From a virus, in the IMG/VR virus record IMGVR_UViG_3300031223_000906, positions 1-31,196 of that record: DNA of 31,196 bases; one strand, written 5' to 3'. The notes beneath the pieces are model-generated. The model made no database searches, was not told the DNA's origin, and saw nothing but the letters and a program-made list of their open reading frames with translations. Shown here piece after piece: positions 1-30,289 of this stretch; within the stretch, counting starts at the first letter, position 1; every line of letters begins with the position of its first letter. The position numbers and the translations under genes were made by a program.

Positions 1-189
1 GGCTGCTGAACAAGAAATTGGATAACCAACCCGGCGCTTGACGCGAAGCCTCTGGGCGTCGGCGTTCGGATCTGCAATTCTCCTGCACGGCTCAAGCAAC
101 CCGCCCCCTTGGCATGGTTCCTCCCTGGCCCTGAATGTATGCGGGGGGGCGCAGCGCGGCATTTCGCTAGCGACAGGCACTTTCACCGG

Positions 190-364
190 AGAATCCAGGC
201 GGAAGCCACCTCACGCTCCATCTCGGAAAAAGCGACTCATTATCAAAGGGTTGCGGAAGTGCGATCTTGGCGCGCTGGATTCTTTTGCGGAATCCAGGGA
301 ATCCAGTTTGCGGAAGCCACCCAGCCGGAAGCCAGCCACGGGAAGCCACCTGCCTGGAAGCCAT
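190..364. repeat. Cluster of short direct and inverted repeats
   Basis: GGAAGCCA occurs at 201, 312, 327, 341 and 356; the last four form a tandem run with a period of 14-15 nt. GAATCCAG occurs at 191, 290 and 299, and its exact reverse complement CTGGATTC at 275-282, so 275-297 can fold as a perfect 8-bp stem with a 7-nt loop. TTGCGGAA is also repeated three times between 250 and 315. Regular spacing of about one and a half helical turns suggests arrayed protein-binding sites, but a decayed repeat is equally possible. No function is shown by the sequence. Confidence 0.6.
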
Positions 365-386
365 TGAATCCAAGCCTGTTTTCCAA

Positions 387-432
387 TTGACAAAGCTGCC
401 CCCCTTGACCTACCTATTGATCATCGAAGAAT
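387..432 (+). promoter_or_regulatory. Weak candidate promoter for the methyltransferase gene
   Basis: TTGACA at 387-392 is a perfect -35 hexamer but has no good -10 at the right distance. TTGACC at 405-410 is followed after 16 nt by AAGAAT (427-432), four of six matches to TATAAT. Both lie about 120-160 nt before the gene at 552. This is only a pattern match. Confidence 0.2.
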
Positions 433-2515: not shown

Positions 2516-2743
2516 TCACTCGGCATATTCGCCCTCCTTGAAGGCGCTGTTGGTGATCTCGCGCAGGAGGCTGGCATAGTGGTTCAGGGTGCCCACGTCG
2601 CCCCAATTGATCTCGTCGGGTTGGGTGTTGAAGTGGTCGTCGCTCAGGCCCTGCAGCCGTTCCAGCATCGCGTCGATCTGGGCTTTGGTGGTCATGAAGG
2701 CTGCGAGGGCTTTGGCATTGTCGGTGGCGCGGCGGGTGGTCAT
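2516..2743 (-). CDS. Small conserved prophage protein, function unknown
   Basis: This is a 75-aa soluble, acidic protein. Residues ~10-30 form a probable helix (A-L-A-A-F-M-T-T-K-A-Q-I-D) and the second half carries a Trp-containing motif (N-W-G-D-V-G-T-L) ending in E-G-E-Y. I recall similar short proteins next to DUF3489 genes in Rhodobacterales, but no function is known to me. ATG at 2743 has AAGGA about 9 nt upstream, which decides the start against a longer open frame reaching 2935; that extension would cross the divergent intergenic region and overlap the small terminase gene. It is the first gene of a short leftward unit (75-aa gene, then DUF3489) opposite to the late operon. Confidence 0.75.
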   Translation of the reverse strand: MTTRRATDNAKALAAFMTTKAQIDAMLERLQGLSDDHFNTQPDEINWGDVGTLNHYASLLREITNSAFKEGEYAE

Positions 2744-2861
2744 GGCTTGGTCATCCTTGGGTGAGTTGCATCGTTTTCCTGCACCCAGATTCGCTCTAGT
2801 GGCGAGTGTAATCAACTGAATAACAAGCAATATCATTGCTTTAATCAAAGCGAACAAAGCC
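2744..2861. promoter_or_regulatory. Divergent intergenic region with palindrome (probable operator/promoter region)
   Basis: This AT-rich 118-nt gap separates the leftward small genes from the rightward packaging/structural operon, so at least one promoter is expected. It contains a perfect palindrome, AAGCAAT-ATC-ATTGCTT (2825-2841), flanked by two direct copies of TAATCAA (2809-2815 and 2842-2848). This looks like a dimer-binding operator next to the start of the late operon. I could not assign convincing -35/-10 boxes. Confidence 0.5.
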
Positions 2862-3398
2862 ATGGAGGGAATGAGCGAGCGCGAGTATTCCGCCCATTCC
2901 GGCATCTCGCGCGGGGCGATCCAGAAGGCACGCAAGGCCGGGCGTCTGGTGGTCTACAGTGATGGCTCAATCAATGCAGCCGCTTCTGATGTGCGCCGCG
3001 CGGATATGACCGACCCCGACCAGCAGCGGCGCAGCACCGGCGGCGATGCTGCGTTCAGCGGCCCCGCTGATAGCTCGTCCTACCTGAAAGCCCGAACCGC
3101 GCTAACCGTCTATCAGGCGCAGGAACGCCAACTGGCGATCCAAAAGAAAAAGGGCACGCTGGTCGATCGCGCCCGGGCGGAAACGCTGGTGTTTAGGCTT
3201 GCGCGACAGGAACGCGATGTCTGGGTCACCTGGCCCAGCAGAGTCGCGGCATTAATGGCAGCCGAAGTGGCAGCGGAGGTGGAAAAACAAACGGCCCAGC
3301 CAATGAATATCGAGGCCGCGATCCTGCAGAGGGTGCTGGAAACCCATGTCAGAGCGCAACTCGACGCACTTGCCGATCTCCGGGTCGACCTCGGATAG
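2862..3398 (+). CDS. Terminase small subunit (probable)
   Basis: Likely DNA-recognition subunit of the packaging motor. The 178-aa protein starts with a helix-turn-helix-like segment (E-Y-S-A-H-S-G-I-S-R-G-A-I-Q-K-A-R-K-A-G-R), the layout of Nu1-like small terminases, followed by a linker and a long, charged, helical C-terminal half (residues ~75-178) that could oligomerise and bind the large subunit. It lies directly before the large terminase gene and overlaps it by 53 nt. Two in-frame ATGs compete: 2862 and 2871. GGAGGGA sits immediately before 2871, too close for normal spacing, and 2862 has only a weak site, so the start may be either. It is the first gene of the rightward operon. Confidence 0.78.
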   Translation: MEGMSEREYSAHSGISRGAIQKARKAGRLVVYSDGSINAAASDVRRADMTDPDQQRRSTGGDAAFSGPADSSSYLKARTALTVYQAQERQLAIQKKKGTLVDRARAETLVFRLARQERDVWVTWPSRVAALMAAEVAAEVEKQTAQPMNIEAAILQRVLETHVRAQLDALADLRVDLG

Positions 3399-10898: not shown

Positions 10899-11726
10899 TC
10901 AGGCAACACCAGCCAGCAGCGCGTCGAGCACTGTCGCGGTAACTGCTCCCACAGCCATGTCACCAAAGGCACTTCGGAATTGATCGGGCGAAACCGACCC
11001 TGCTCGCAGAACACGGCCTGCGGCCAAAGCGCCAGAAACGAGCGCCGAAGTTACGACAGCCTCGCCGACTTCATGAAGCAGTCCATCGCCGGGCAAACCG
11101 GAGAAGACGTGATCGACATTGGCTATAAGATGCTCGTTGGACAGCCCTGAGCTGGCTACTCCGTCGATCTTGTCCGCTACTTCTGTTGTAGCCAGGACCT
11201 CAATCTCGGGATATCGGGAAAGATGCTCGCGGATTGGCGCAACAGATGCGACGGCCTTCAGCTGGACTTCTCGGATGACGTCCCCCTCTACGAGGAACTG
11301 AACATCTGCACCCGGATGATTGGTCGCGCCAAAAACCTCGGCGGTAATCTCTCCCCCATCCGCGTTCACGCCATGAACATACAGCAGCTCGTGGTAGATG
11401 CCCTTGATGTTCGAAGCGACACCCCGAAGTTGTCCCGGGTCCAGTGCGGCAACATAGGCGGCGAGTTCACCAACATCTGCATCACGCAACGAGTCCGATG
11501 ACCGCCGGAGCGCGTCAAGCACCAGCCGCTCTTCAACCGACCAAAAGCGGCTGCTGTCATCAACCAGTCGCTGGAGGGTTACCGCAATAACAACGGCAGC
11601 GCTGCGCTGTCCGTCGCCTATTGCGGCGCAGCCAAGGCTGAGATCGCGATCCGGCCGATCTCTGTCCTGCAGTGATCGAGCTTGCGTTGATGCAGTAAGG
11701 CGAGCGTCTTGGTAAATGGCTGACAT
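10899..11726 (-). CDS. Accessory protein A of inserted cassette; possible PD-(D/E)xK-like core
   Basis: 275-aa protein I do not recognise. The N-terminal ~110 residues are helical. The centre (residues ~105-190) has G-I-Y-H-E-L-L (Glu113), H-P-G-A-D-V-Q-F (Asp141) and E-V-Q-L-K-A (Glu153, Gln155, Lys157), the order of acidic and lysine residues seen in PD-(D/E)xK nucleases and inactive relatives. The last ~60 residues are Ala/Gly/Val-rich and hydrophobic (A-L-V-S-G-A-L-A-A-G; A-V-G-A-V-T-A-T-V-L). Nuclease activity is inference only. ATG at 11726 has AAGGA upstream, but it overlaps cassette gene B by 109 nt, so the true start may be later. Transcribed against the late operon, it ends 4 nt from the DUF6441 stop. 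Base composition is less GC-rich than the flanking genes. Confidence 0.7.
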   Translation of the reverse strand: MSAIYQDARLTASTQARSLQDRDRPDRDLSLGCAAIGDGQRSAAVVIAVTLQRLVDDSSRFWSVEERLVLDALRRSSDSLRDADVGELAAYVAALDPGQLRGVASNIKGIYHELLYVHGVNADGGEITAEVFGATNHPGADVQFLVEGDVIREVQLKAVASVAPIREHLSRYPEIEVLATTEVADKIDGVASSGLSNEHLIANVDHVFSGLPGDGLLHEVGEAVVTSALVSGALAAGRVLRAGSVSPDQFRSAFGDMAVGAVTATVLDALLAGVA

Positions 11727-12544
11727 CCGGGAATTCCTTCTTCGTCCAGGCTCGCCTGGCTCCAATATTGGTTGATCTGATTGGCCAAAGGGATCAGCGC
11801 ATGCTCGGCGATGAGGCGCATTTCGGCATTGGTTGTGGGTGCGCCATTCTCGATCTGTTGCCGGATCGCCTTGATCAACGTGATGCAGGCAACGAGGATA
11901 GCCTTCTCGTGCTCGTGCAGATCACCTTCGGGTCTGGGCTTACCGAAGAGCCATCGCTTTGCGACAAGACCGCCGCCGACTCCAATGCCTATGCCGGTTC
12001 CCGCCAAGATCACTCCTCCAGCAGCGGTCCCGAGACCGATGATCGAGCCCACCCAATACAGCTGCGCCGTTGTTGCCGCTGCACCAGTGAGTGACCCTAT
12101 CGCGGCGCCGGTCCCAGCGGTACCGAAAGCTGTTATCAGGGTGGCAATACCGGTCACAGCGGCAATACCAGTTGTTTTGCCGATCACCGTGTTGACGAAT
12201 ATACGTGTTCGTTTTTCGGAGTCCTGTCGGATGGCCGCGACGACCGCGTTCAGGTTTTCTTCCAAGTGCTCAAGTGAGCTTGCTTTCGGCTTTTCATTCC
12301 ACCCGAACCTTGCCGCATTGTCCTTTGCCCAGATCTCAATTTGACTTTGGTTCGGGATATGCGGCGACAAGCGCTCATGCTGTCGCTTGCCCCAAGCGAG
12401 AGCTTTCTCAAAACGCGGCGCTGCCGCTTCGACCTCTGCTGCGCCGCGTTTCAATGCCTTCTTGGCGTATCCGTATGCATTCGCAAGATTTTCTTTCAAT
12501 TCAATCGCTTTCGGACCGCTGCAGTCTTCATCACTACATGTCAC
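11618..12544 (-). CDS. Accessory protein B of inserted cassette; glycine-zipper membrane protein
   Basis: 308-aa protein of unknown family. Residues ~1-115 are charged and helical (possible coiled coil). Residues ~118-200 are a long Gly/Ala/Ile/Thr-rich hydrophobic region with repeated G-x3-G spacing (G-I-G-I-G-V-G-G-G), probably two to four membrane helices of glycine-zipper type, ending in positive residues. Residues ~205-308 are again helical and cytosolic-looking. Such zippers occur in pore-forming and membrane-perturbing effectors, but no homologue was identified. The start is GTG at 12544; no in-frame ATG lies near the N terminus. It is the first gene of a leftward pair with protein A, and its start lies only 35 nt from the divergent gpU-like gene. 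Confidence 0.75.
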   Translation of the reverse strand: MTCSDEDCSGPKAIELKENLANAYGYAKKALKRGAAEVEAAAPRFEKALAWGKRQHERLSPHIPNQSQIEIWAKDNAARFGWNEKPKASSLEHLEENLNAVVAAIRQDSEKRTRIFVNTVIGKTTGIAAVTGIATLITAFGTAGTGAAIGSLTGAAATTAQLYWVGSIIGLGTAAGGVILAGTGIGIGVGGGLVAKRWLFGKPRPEGDLHEHEKAILVACITLIKAIRQQIENGAPTTNAEMRLIAEHALIPLANQINQYWSQASLDEEGIPGCQPFTKTLALLHQRKLDHCRTEIGRIAISALAAPQ

Positions 12545-26372: not shown

Positions 26373-28424
26373 TCAGATTTCCCGACTATTGCCGACAAGC
26401 TCTATTTCAACTGCTTTCAATAGCCTTGAATTCCGGAATGTTACATTTGCCAAGTAGAGTTTTTTTAGACTAGATGACCTCATGAGGGGCGCAAGGTCTA
26501 CCTCCTTCGCAATTGATATCTCGAGTTGCTTCAGGGCCTTGAGTTGGTGAACTCCTTCTAAGTTTACGTTATTCGCATTCACCGTCAGGTTGGTTAGGTT
26601 GGTCAGCCCAGCCATTTCAGAAAAGCCGCTCACTTTGTTTGCCTGTATTGATAAGCCAATTAGGTTTGGCAAACCTCCCAGCACTGAAAAATTGCTGGCA
26701 ATGTTTGTATTTAGCTTCAGGTTATTCACGTTCGTAAGCTGCCCCAGTGCCGTTAGGTCGGTGACCTTGTTTGCATGTAAGGACAAGTTGGTCAGGTTTG
26801 TGAGCTGCCCTAGGGCCGTAACGTCGATGGCCTCGCCTGCACGCACCGACAGGCTTGTTAGGTTGGTAAGCTGTCCCAGTGCCGTGAGGTCACTGGCCTC
26901 AGTTGCCTGCACTGTCAGGCTTGTCAGGTTCGAGAGCTTTCCCAGCGGCGCAAGGTCGCTGGCCTCGTTTGCATGCACTGACAGGCTTGTCAGTTTAGTG
27001 AGCTCTCCCAACGCCATAAGGTCGCTGGCCCCGTTTGTCTGCAACCTCAGCTTGGACAGGTTAGTGAGTTGTCCCAGCGCCGTAAGGTTGCTAGCCCTGT
27101 TTGTCTTCACAGACAGGCTTGTCAGGTTAGTGAGCTGTCCCAGTGCCGTAAGGTCGCTGGCCTCGTGTGCCCGCACTGACAGGCCGGTTAGGTTAGTTAA
27201 CTGCCCAAGCGCAGTAAGGTCACTAGCCTTGTTTGAAAAGACCCATAGGTTGGTCAGGTTGGTGAGACTATTTAGCGCCGCAAAATCGCGGGCCTCATTT
27301 ATATGCACGGACAGGCTGGTCAGGTTAGTGAGCTGCCCCACAGTTTTCGTCTCTTTGGGGCTTAAGCTAAAGTTACTCAATCGCAGAGTTTTCAGATTTT
27401 TTAGTAATAACAGGTCAGAATGACGTTTGATGCGACCGTCCCTATTATGAAAAGAGAGAAATTCAGCCTTTACCGCGAGATCAGGATGTAATTTGGCACC
27501 GGACAAAAGAATCTCTTTCACTCGGCGTTCCGCATCAAGAGTCTGTGGGTCTCTTTGCCTTTCGACAGCTACTATTGCGGGGCGACGGTTTATCTTGAGT
27601 CGCTCTCCCGTCGCCGCCAAAGCTACCGCAAGACTGCGTATTTGATCGTAAGCAAGATGCCGGAGACGTTTATTAAATCCACTCCATTCTTCCATCCAGA
27701 TTTGACCAACATCGACTCCGACATGAATCTTATTAGCGGTCTTAATCATCACATCCGGCAACTTTGACAAAGCGATGCTCGCAGATTCATACCACCGTGC
27801 TACAATCGGTCGAATACGAATTTGTGATTGAATAGAATGCGCAATGTTCGCGCTGTCTTGAACTTGTCGCCGTAGACTATCGGCGTGTATGGAACCCACT
27901 TCAGCCCACTTAGCTAGATTTTTGGACTCTTGCTCTGCGTTTTGAGCGATGTCGCGCGATTTGTTGCTGATATCAGCAAAAGTGCCGTCTTTACCGAATT
28001 CAAGAGTTTCTTCTGCACCGACGTGATCATCATATTTACCCTGTGCTTGTGAACGATACTCGTCAAGCGCCGTGCCGACAGCGACATAAAGCCGTGTTAT
28101 CGCGACGTCGAGCGGATGCTCACGAGTGAAGTATGTGTCATCTTCATCATTCAGTTCAGGTTCTTCACCTTCAATATGAAAATGGTCCCGCCGAACCAAT
28201 GGCAGCACATGCCGCGCGAAATTGAGGGGTTCTACACTGCCTTCCGCCGTGCCGTTCTTCAAATTGGAAAGAGAGATGCATATTTCTTGAAGTGCTTCGA
28301 CCGGAAACTTCTGTGGCATCAGATTGATACCACGCAAAGTGTCAGCTACCCGATCAGATTCTTTAGCAACTTGCTCTAATTCACGGGTTAAACGTGGATC
28401 TGGGGTTGCGTAATCCAATGCCAT
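26373..28424 (-). CDS. Large leucine-rich-repeat protein, accessory gene
   Basis: 683-aa protein. Residues 1-~335 are a helical, charged region I do not recognise (D-P-R-L-T-R-E-L-E-Q-V-A; W-Y-E-S-A-S-I-A-L-S-K-L-P). From ~341 to ~660 come about 14 internalin-type repeats of 22 residues, consensus L-T-N-L-T-S-L-S-V-x-x-N-x-A-S-D-L-T-A-L-G-Q. The varying positions fall on the predicted concave face, as in binding scaffolds. No signal peptide, membrane helix, NTPase or nuclease motif was seen. GAAGGG lies 8 nt upstream of ATG 28424; TTG 28427 is an alternative. It is opposite to the phage operon and clearly lower in GC, which suggests acquired cargo. A recognition role is plausible but unproven. 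Confidence 0.85.
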   Translation of the reverse strand: MALDYATPDPRLTRELEQVAKESDRVADTLRGINLMPQKFPVEALQEICISLSNLKNGTAEGSVEPLNFARHVLPLVRRDHFHIEGEEPELNDEDDTYFTREHPLDVAITRLYVAVGTALDEYRSQAQGKYDDHVGAEETLEFGKDGTFADISNKSRDIAQNAEQESKNLAKWAEVGSIHADSLRRQVQDSANIAHSIQSQIRIRPIVARWYESASIALSKLPDVMIKTANKIHVGVDVGQIWMEEWSGFNKRLRHLAYDQIRSLAVALAATGERLKINRRPAIVAVERQRDPQTLDAERRVKEILLSGAKLHPDLAVKAEFLSFHNRDGRIKRHSDLLLLKNLKTLRLSNFSLSPKETKTVGQLTNLTSLSVHINEARDFAALNSLTNLTNLWVFSNKASDLTALGQLTNLTGLSVRAHEASDLTALGQLTNLTSLSVKTNRASNLTALGQLTNLSKLRLQTNGASDLMALGELTKLTSLSVHANEASDLAPLGKLSNLTSLTVQATEASDLTALGQLTNLTSLSVRAGEAIDVTALGQLTNLTNLSLHANKVTDLTALGQLTNVNNLKLNTNIASNFSVLGGLPNLIGLSIQANKVSGFSEMAGLTNLTNLTVNANNVNLEGVHQLKALKQLEISIAKEVDLAPLMRSSSLKKLYLANVTFRNSRLLKAVEIELVGNSREI
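26739..27332 (-). repeat. Nine tandem 66-bp repeats coding for LRR units
   Basis: Repeats 2-10 of the LRR protein are exactly 66 nt long without insertions and are strongly alike at DNA level (for example AGGT-TGGT-AAGCTG-type blocks recur every 66 nt). The high DNA identity suggests recent duplication or gene conversion and would allow repeat number to change by recombination. Confidence 0.88.
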
Positions 28425-28816
28425 CAATACGACCCTTCTCTAGCTTCTAGCCTGCGGAATGAACAAGACTTTCCATGTTTGCCCTTAGGCTTCAACCCTT
28501 TCCAATAAGACTCGATATCGGTGAAAAACTCGACCCTCAGGTCCTTTGCGGCCATTTAGCAGAAAAAAGTTCCACTTCTGCCAAGAAAGTGCTGATATTC
28601 AGGTGGATTTGGATCGACTTGGCGGCGTTTTTTTTAATTTTTGCGACGTCTAAGCAAAAAGCGGGGTTTTGCACCAGTATAGCTCGTTTTTGGAACAGTT
28701 GGTTATGGGCCGTTTTCCACTGCCACAAACTTCGTTCAAAACCCAAGCAGTTGTTGAAGATTTCGGCCTGCTTTATGTTAGCCGCCTTTCGCGGCATTGC
28801 AGAAATCCGTCAAGGT
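28425..28816. other. AT-rich intergenic stretch between LRR gene and IS
   Basis: This contains the promoter region expected for the leftward LRR gene (its ribosome site is at ~28430-28440). Short open frames here (an 86-aa leftward one ending at 28537 and a 126-aa rightward one from 28475) have no ribosome site or recognisable protein. GCCGC and GCGGC form a short hairpin near 28781-28795, just outside the IS end. No gene is supported. Confidence 0.55.
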
Positions 28817-28838
28817 GGGCTTATTTTGTTGAAAAGTC
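28817..28838 (+). repeat. Left terminal inverted repeat of the IS
   Basis: Begins GGGCTTATTTTG and continues GTTGAAAAGTC. It pairs with 30393-30415 except for two mismatches and one missing A. Confidence 0.85.
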
Positions 28839-28868
28839 TTGTTGCTTTGAAGTAAGTCATTTGATTCA

Positions 28869-28887
28869 CTCGTTATTGTAGAACGAG
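28869..28887 (+). promoter_or_regulatory. Hairpin just before the transposase ribosome site
   Basis: CTCGTT (28869-28874) and AACGAG (28882-28887) form a perfect 6-bp stem with a 7-nt loop. It ends directly at GGGAGGA, the transposase ribosome site. It could limit translation of transcripts entering the IS from outside, a known protection strategy of insertion sequences; that is inference here. Confidence 0.45.
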
Positions 28888-28900
28888 GGAGGATTTTGCG

Positions 28901-30289
28901 ATGATGGGCACTCAAGAAGCTCCGGCGCTGCTGTTTTACGACTTTGACATGGAGGCGCATGTTCCGTCGGATCACTTGTTGCGCGAGATTGATAGGTTTC
29001 TGGACGTTGACACAATCCGCCAGCAGCTGAAGCAGTATTACAGCCACCTCGGGCGTCCCTCGATTGATCCTGAACTGATCATCCGGATGCTGGTGGTCGG
29101 ATATGTTATGGGCATTCGGTCGGAACGGCGGCTTTGTGACGAAGTTCATTTGAACCTGGCCTATCGCTGGTTCTGTCGCCTCGGCTTGAACCAAAAGGTG
29201 CCCGATCACAGCACTTTCTCAAAGTACCGTCACGGTAAATTCCGTGACAGCGATCTTCTCCGTATTGTGTTTGAGGCCACCGTTGCGCGCTGCATTTCTG
29301 AAGGCCTTGTTGGCGGCCATGGCTTTGCCGTTGATGCCAGCCTGATCGAAGCCGATGTCGATAGAATGAACTCCACGGCACAGTCGGAATGGGATGTATC
29401 GGCAATCAATCCAGACGATGCACCGCGAGCAGTCAGGGAATATCTCGACGTTCTTGATGACAAGGCCTTTGGCGCATCAACCCCTGTCAAACCCAAGTTC
29501 ACGTCTCACTCCGATCCGGCCAGCCAGTGGACTGCAGCGCGCAAGGGTCCGGCGATCTTTTGTTATTCAAACAATTATCTGATCGATACGGATCATTCCG
29601 TCATCGTTGATGTCGAGGCAACACGTTCCATCAGGCAGGCCGAAGTGGGTGCCGCGCAAACCATGATTGATCGTACGGAAGAGCGCTTCAGCATCAAGCC
29701 AGACTGGCTGGTTGCAGATACGGCTTACGGCTCAGCGGAGAATCTGGCGTGGTTGACAAAGAAGCGCAGCATCATTCCATTTATCCCCTTGATCGATAAA
29801 TCAGAGCGCACAGATGGCACATTCTCTCGTTCAGACTTCGAATGGGATGAAGACAATGACCGCTATACTTGCCCTGAAGGCCAGCACCTGTTGCAGTCTC
29901 GTCGGAACTATTCTGACCCGCGTAGGAAAGAACCCAAAACCGAGCGGCGCAGATACCGCGCCACCAAAGCCATCTGCGATGCGTGCCCGTCAAAACCAAA
30001 ATGCTGCCCAAACACAAACACCCGCTTCATTGGCCGCGAGGAACATGAGGACGCGCGTGACTTTGCCCGACTGGCCGCCAAGTCTTCCTTCAACCCCAAG
30101 GCCCAAGCCAAACGCAAAAAGGTCGAAATGCTCTTCGCCCACCTCAAACGCATTCTCGGCTTGGGACGGCTCCGGCTTCGAGGGCCCTGCGGTGTAAGGG
30201 ACGAATTTACGCTCGCTGCAATTGCCCAGAACCTTCGAAAACTCGCAAAACTAAGACCCAAGACTGGCGAAACAAGGATCGCAATATGA
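28901..30289 (+). CDS. IS1182 family transposase
   Basis: 462-aa DDE transposase. The N-terminal DUF772-type region carries H-V-P-S-D-H-L-L-R-E-I-D, G-R-P-S-I-D-P and P-D-H-S-T-F-S-K-Y-R. Catalytic residues are Asp145 (F-A-V-D-A-S-L-I), Asp273 (V-A-D-T-A-Y-G-S) and Glu409 (K-V-E-M-L-F-A-H-L-K-R). A Cys cluster (C-D-A-C-P-S-K-P-K-C-C) lies between the second Asp and the Glu, as usual in this family. The frame is intact from ATG 28901, with GGGAGGA upstream, so the element may be active. Two tandem ATGs leave the start uncertain by one codon. Confidence 0.95.
   Translation: MMGTQEAPALLFYDFDMEAHVPSDHLLREIDRFLDVDTIRQQLKQYYSHLGRPSIDPELIIRMLVVGYVMGIRSERRLCDEVHLNLAYRWFCRLGLNQKVPDHSTFSKYRHGKFRDSDLLRIVFEATVARCISEGLVGGHGFAVDASLIEADVDRMNSTAQSEWDVSAINPDDAPRAVREYLDVLDDKAFGASTPVKPKFTSHSDPASQWTAARKGPAIFCYSNNYLIDTDHSVIVDVEATRSIRQAEVGAAQTMIDRTEERFSIKPDWLVADTAYGSAENLAWLTKKRSIIPFIPLIDKSERTDGTFSRSDFEWDEDNDRYTCPEGQHLLQSRRNYSDPRRKEPKTERRRYRATKAICDACPSKPKCCPNTNTRFIGREEHEDARDFARLAAKSSFNPKAQAKRKKVEMLFAHLKRILGLGRLRLRGPCGVRDEFTLAAIAQNLRKLAKLRPKTGETRIAI

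Follow-up and report, generated by a model that had tools for sequence, protein, structure and literature searches.

A conserved palindrome beside the terminase genes of lambda-like prophages as a probable operator of the leftward 75-aa/DUF3489 operon

Introduction

The IMG/VR virus record IMGVR_UViG_3300031223_000906 (positions 1-31,196; this whole stretch of 31,196 bp is called the window) carries the genes for packaging, head, tail, and lysis of a lambda-like prophage; related prophages are found mostly in Rhodobacterales. A plus-strand gene encoding a ParB-like/DNA methylase fusion (552-1811; ParB-Tls locus) is followed by two minus-strand genes, encoding a DUF3489 protein (PF11994, phrog_10315; 1870-2424, with a provisional start codon in an open frame reaching 2577) and a 75-aa protein (phrog_14596; 2516-2743, the first gene of the leftward unit), and then by plus-strand genes for the small (phrog_57; 2862-3398) and large terminase subunits. 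Upstream of both the 75-aa gene and its divergent neighbor, the small terminase gene, lies a perfect palindrome, AAGCAAT-ATC-ATTGCTT, at 2825-2841 (arms 2825-2831 and 2835-2841), exactly as claimed by an earlier reading of the DNA made without database searches (the sequence-only reading), which took it for an operator of the packaging genes, the DUF3489 unit, or both. The question raised by this locus is which of the two units the palindrome controls. The region is not, as that reading held, the only divergent intergenic region in the window: a leucine-rich-repeat (LRR) gene (start 28427, minus) and a transposase gene (start 28901, plus) are also divergent. These genes, for an LRR protein and a DDE transposase, occupy 26373-30289, right of the lysis genes. 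Additionally, two minus-strand genes within the late operon (10899-12544) matched the PADLOC candidate-defence models PDC-M72B and PDC-M09A.

In Paracoccus prophages, the ParB-Tls locus also has a ParB-methylase fusion upstream of the terminase genes; the available text of that account (PMC6536676) describes the methylases, not a leftward operon or a control site. The control region was likewise undescribed in the available portions of the literature on DUF3489, terminase promoters of Rhodobacterales prophages, CcrM/GANTC with phage, and GcrA with terminase or prophage, where one paper on DUF3489 offered a fold-level link only.

Materials and methods

Relatives were found via the small terminase protein, taking the best 80 of 509 viral relatives and the best 80 of 189 in bacterial genomes. 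Near relatives dominate this sample and some contigs occur in both sets, hence de-duplicated counts are also given. The 160 loci and the window made 161 sequences, of which 159 were retained after removal of two with less than 115 bp upstream. Another 26 of the 159 had no 75-aa gene in the DNA examined, and their exclusion left 133 loci with both places visible. The seed 'PLDPA' used in mapping gene order was an open frame fused with DUF3489, and its matches are counted as DUF3489. The terminase-gene tree comprised 137 distinct taxa, 134 of them registered on the core AATCAACTGAATA, with the GANTC columns outside the registration.

Results and discussion

Conservation and gene context of the palindrome

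Within the window, AAGCAATNNNATTGCTT matched at one place only (up to 3 mismatches). The 31 kb contained 37 inverted repeats with 7-bp arms and gaps of 0-10 bp, two of them with a gap of exactly 3, and the palindrome is thus not rare by size alone. The sequence-only reading had proposed a search before homologous terminase operons and had counted absence from close relatives, together with the lack of a nearby start site, against an operator. In the search, 52 of 159 loci, the window among them, had the palindrome (up to 4 mismatches) immediately ahead of the gene for the small terminase subunit. This conservation sets it apart from chance. In viral contigs, the exact palindrome occurred at 80 or more loci among the matches listed. 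Of those listed 80, 44 had the core AATCAACTGAATA (up to 3 mismatches) directly upstream, and at least one of these 44 (L139) looks like a chance match. The remaining 36 comprise both variants of this core and phage sequence that appears unrelated.

Gene order varied among the 133 loci. The operon adjoined the terminase gene in 37, of which 32 had the palindrome, and was separated from it by extra leftward genes in 96. Among these 96 far loci, the palindrome was found at the operon in 78, at the terminase gene in 11 (one of them having it at both), and at neither in 8. The other ten of these 11 have one extra gene between the palindrome and the 75-aa gene, which is consistent with a longer operon. 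Seen from the other side, 77 of the 90 loci that lack a terminase-side palindrome and have a 75-aa gene carry the palindrome at the 75-aa gene. After removal of identical upstream sequences (n = 115), we counted 27 near loci with the palindrome, 67 far loci with it at the operon only, 9 far loci with it at the terminase gene only, one with both, and 11 with none. The palindrome lay 79-81 bp from the 75-aa start in 101 of the 105 loci having one within 110 bp. Thus, the site stays with the 75-aa/DUF3489 unit when the neighbors change (78 of 96 far loci, plus 10).

Internal palindromes (up to 4 mismatches) usually read AAGCAATATCAGTGCTT or GAGCAATATCAGTGCTT. They lie about 370-1280 bp left of the terminase gene within the leftward cluster, where the leader GAGTTGCATCGTT occurs a second time next to them, and small leftward genes of other kinds separate this inner copy from the terminase gene. 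Between the 75-aa and terminase genes, the set of small leftward genes differs from locus to locus (phrog_25001, phrog_2555-like, and unnamed), forming a cassette of possible accessory cargo.

Some loci depart from this pattern. Neither place had a palindrome with up to 4 mismatches in 13 of the 133 loci; four of these (L360, L369, L374, and L380) retain a degenerate one with 5-6 mismatches. In L359, the palindrome is at the terminase gene, yet a gene other than the 75-aa gene comes first there, which counts against an operator of the leftward unit.

A rival explanation, taken from the sequence-only reading, makes the palindrome the operator of the rightward packaging/late operon. In its favor, 52 of 159 loci have the palindrome some 37 bp ahead of the terminase start, where action in both directions is possible. 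A prophage structural operon of Brevundimonas subvibrioides with terminase GpA (Bresu_0058-0084), a likeness to the present locus, is reportedly GcrA-dependent (PMC7987155, in the part available), which bears on the neighboring GANTC and not on the palindrome. However, 77 of 133 loci carry the palindrome at the 75-aa gene inside the leftward cluster and none at the terminase gene, so the comparison upheld the claim for the DUF3489 unit and told against that for the packaging genes. In addition, terminase sides without the palindrome commonly carry another block, TTATTTCCGTTTAATTCCAATATCTTGA, which matched 97 times at terminase genes and once elsewhere (up to 8 substitutions). Control of the packaging operon through the palindrome therefore appears improbable. 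Most of the other loci indeed have this different conserved block before the terminase gene and no palindrome, and the block is likely a terminase-side control element. In palindrome-less loci, TTATTTCCGTTTAATTCCAATATCTTGA takes the place of the palindrome about 20-60 bp before the terminase gene.

Symmetry, spacing, and the leftward unit

On the terminase side, 26 distinct sites with up to 6 mismatches were compared; the three innermost pairs were kept in 25, 20, and 19 of them, and paired changes occurred at two pairs. The change of C:G to T:A, which gives AAGTAATTTCATTACTT, was seen in two loci (L058 and L335), and three distinct sites showed that of A:T to G:C. More variation is seen in the outer part of the right arm; the left half is steadier than the right, and a group whose terminase starts with MKGMS retains chiefly the left half. 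At internal copies (22 distinct sites), two pairs are regularly disrupted: one has A opposite G in 16 sites, and the outermost is intact in 7. The symmetry of the palindrome is not absolute, which counts against an operator.

The conserved leader GAGTTGCATCGTT (AACGATGCAACTC when read leftward) lies before the 75-aa gene at 2763-2775 on the minus strand. Among distinct copies with a palindrome of up to 4 mismatches, leader and palindrome were 62 bp apart in 37 of 40 on the terminase side and in 62 of 63 at internal positions. Identity between the two contexts was 37% over the 27 bp next to the palindrome, compared with 25% in column-shuffled sequences, and 26% against 24%, i.e., the random level, in the DNA beyond it. 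Because this spacing is fixed and the DNA beyond is unrelated, the alignments indicate that the palindrome marks the outer edge of a leader-box-palindrome unit tied to the operon and independent of the terminase gene. From a spacing fixed over diverged DNA we infer a bound protein that would contact the transcription complex.

The unit might instead be chiefly a boundary at which homologous recombination swaps cassettes of small leftward genes. As such swapping would produce, the small genes that separate the operon from the terminase gene differ between loci, and leader and box are repeated; homologous exchange alone leaves unexplained both the paired changes of the palindrome and the fixed spacing over diverged DNA, and we hold this explanation unlikely. 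On the comparison of these loci, the palindrome is probably an operator controlling the leftward 75-aa (phrog_14596)/DUF3489 operon in the ParB-terminase locus. A dimeric, probably phage-encoded regulator would bind it at about -52 relative to the start predicted from the candidate -10, and from this unvarying position would touch RNA polymerase at the promoter of the leftward operon. Such prophages are frequent in Rhodobacterales, and a conserved control site that can now be assigned with good probability to the DUF3489 operon makes this family directly testable.

Candidate leftward promoter

The sequence-only reading had described two TAATCAA copies flanking the palindrome. Both are present on the plus strand, at 2809-2815 and 2842-2848; as a conserved pair they did not hold up, the first being exact in 43 of the 52 palindrome loci and the second in 4 of 52. 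We therefore dropped the paired reading, the first copy being part of the conserved core and the second kept in those four loci only. The first copy is probably the leftward -35, as a minus-strand hexamer TTGATT (AATCAA on the plus strand) at 2810-2815, which was found in 153 of 156 loci, themselves registered on the TTGATT motif. A candidate -10 hexamer, GAATCT (GATTCT in most relatives), lies 17 bp from it at 2787-2792 on the minus strand and contains GANTC. A terminase-side promoter core TTGATT-N17-GANTCT is proposed, and on its sequence it would be a plausible leftward sigma-70 promoter with a methylation site in the -10. A sigma-70 consensus scan of 2600-3000 called no promoter.

Two motifs, AGANTCGCTC and AATCAAC, recur at an unchanged spacing in the terminase-side copies. 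No AATCAAC column changed more than once on the terminase-gene tree, where the registration of loci on AATCAACTGAATA favors those columns. Internal copies have no TTGATT -35. By eye, four distant relatives (L427, L429, L430, and L433) retain TTGATA and have neither the full palindrome nor GANTC, two of them with TTGATA 17 bp from GAACGT, and a half-palindrome CATTGCT is retained in L430 and L431. The IHF consensus is WATCAANNNNTTR. When 2810-2822 was compared with it, the first half of AATCAACTGAATA matched exactly and TTR read ATA.

A palindrome might also act in RNA, as a hairpin, terminator, or attenuator. The two strands fold at -4.7 and -5.2 kcal/mol, but the 7 pairs are mostly A-U without a U tract, a search for terminator-like sites (a G+C-rich stem followed by a T run) found none, and the palindrome lies upstream of the candidate leftward promoter. 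A role in RNA is thus very improbable, and an intrinsic terminator was rejected. In the Caulobacter gene transfer agent (GTA) promoter, with IHF, GafY, and a palindromic GafZ site (PMC11150451, as far as its available text goes), a palindrome is likewise located near phage-like late genes of an alphaproteobacterium. That palindrome lies between -35 and -10, whereas the present one is upstream of the candidate promoter.

Candidate binding proteins

Palindromes with up to one mismatch occurred at 23 places in 16 of 25 searched host genomes, and 22 of the 23 places were inside these prophages. The outlying place (L469) has one mismatch and none of the phage genes nearby. A host regulon was therefore rejected, and, on this distribution, a phage-encoded binder appears likelier than a host regulator.

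DUF3489 is a possible binder, conserved downstream of the palindrome, and its autoregulation would be the leading candidate for control through the site. In the predicted structure, the C-terminal part has a pLDDT of about 85 and the H-H-H-E-E order of a winged helix, within a whole model of low confidence (pTM 0.37). Foldseek with this model gave no match at E 0.001. The best matches were mostly of the MarR family and weak (E 0.012 and above, with unrelated proteins interspersed), and the first hits reached TM-scores of about 0.4 at most. Distant DUF3489 proteins at loci without the palindrome have a very similar C-terminal helix and a different N-terminal part. This likeness speaks against the C-terminal helix as reader of the palindrome.

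A single-sequence search of solved structures gave no DUF3489 relative, and PADLOC reported nothing for DUF3489 or the 75-aa protein. No clear binder emerged from the open frames left of the cos region in several prophage loci, where the two conserved frames encode a replication O-like protein and phrog_9306. In L328 and L335, the DUF3489 frame is interrupted at a single position (...HYAD...MPM end), which is occupied by three adjacent recombinase-like genes, and the cut end of the frame is the same in L346 and L013.

Probable cos region

In lambda, the packaging site lies next to the small terminase gene. The palindrome, adjoining that gene, might likewise be a packaging (cos or terminase-binding) site, but phage RcBaka, which has the same gene order, has cos ends with 11-base 5' overhangs (PMC8601537, Table 3 as available), and its record starts left of the ParB gene in a repeat-rich stretch. 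By eye, the stretch of the window matching the RcBaka start is at about 143-400, 2.4-2.7 kb away from the palindrome, and the N-terminal sequence of the terminase fails to separate loci with and without the palindrome. A packaging site at the palindrome is therefore scarcely credible; it was rejected on the indirect evidence of RcBaka ends mapping left of ParB. A partnership between the palindrome and the N-terminal part of the terminase was likewise rejected, by eye.

Judged by its sequence, window 143-400 is the probable cos region; by eye, it resembles the RcBaka genome start and carries GGAANCCA repeats. It also holds TATCAAAGGGTTG (241-253), an exact match to the IHF consensus, and six GANTC sites lie in 191-370. 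The 450 bp before the ParB-methylase gene had a median of 5 GANTC (0-8) in 57 loci, window included, compared with a median of 0.78 per kb elsewhere. This cluster may be explained by the repeat unit itself.

GANTC box and possible methylation control

The GANTC-GCTC box GATTCGCTC occupies 2788-2796, and its GANTC (2788-2792) is the CcrM recognition sequence with a free N. It was kept in 127 of 134 registered loci. On the terminase-gene tree, the columns of GANTCGCTC changed 3, 4, 33, 1, 3, 5, 1, 2, and 1 times in these 134 loci, so that the central N alone is free (33 inferred changes, 1-5 in its neighbors). The central base was A in 97, T in 13, G in 12, and C in 12 loci. Further sites with the TCGCTC box in register, obtained from 533 loose core matches after leaving out 493 without it, had GANTC in 37 of 40.

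GANTC is the CcrM target, and GcrA binds GANTC after methylation (PMC9836097); the extended GcrA motif is given as YGAKTCG (PMC7987155), both according to the available portions of these papers. All 17 hosts tested had GcrA domain genes and RAMA-domain genes, the latter taken as CcrM type. The present region resembles the CcrM/GcrA promoters of Alphaproteobacteria, as described in the same portions, in having GANTC within a promoter-like region, with the corresponding genes in the 17 hosts. It differs in being a phage region and in that YGAKTCG is not matched at the conserved GANTC, where the preceding base is A and the central base mostly A. Conservation in 127 of 134 and 37 of 40 sites fits what is expected of a CcrM/GcrA promoter, at a promoter that is itself a candidate.

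Alternatively, AGA-N-TCGCTC could be a protein-binding box that tolerates change at the free N and is no methylation site. This N is A in 97 of 134 loci, the extended GcrA motif (PMC7987155, as above) is unmatched, and internal copies and distant relatives retain TCGCTC-like boxes without GANTC. Against this, the column becomes fixed once GA is replaced, as it is in internal copies, being A in 80 of 81 (4 of 85 copies had no readable box) compared with 65 of 95 on the terminase side, and GANTC is otherwise about 3.5-fold depleted across the window (36, versus 128 ± 10 in shuffles). A tolerated base is possible, though we lean away from it. From the pattern of the GANTC columns we infer that the leftward region may be under methylation control: since the candidate -10 holds the conserved GANTC, a second input, linked to the cell cycle, may come from methylation by the host CcrM together with GcrA.

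More speculatively, and rather doubtfully, the terminase-side region could be a methylation-gated switch. A selected GANTC in the leftward promoter would be methylated by CcrM, its brief loss of methylation after replication would be read with GcrA, this promoter would also be the target of the palindrome-bound phage regulator, and packaging would sense the same signal through the GANTC cluster of the cos region. If so, the prophage would be told when its own DNA or the host chromosome had just been copied. The comparison also predicts that a phage control region is read via host cell-cycle methylation. Expression of the packaging locus would then be tied to replication, and this might bear on the GcrA dependence of the Brevundimonas prophage operon, whose regulation its authors call unclear in the available part of PMC7987155. 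By sequence, the ParB-methylase matched CcrM no better than other methylases; GANTC-specific phage methylases are known from sinorhizobial prophages, according to the accessible part of that literature.
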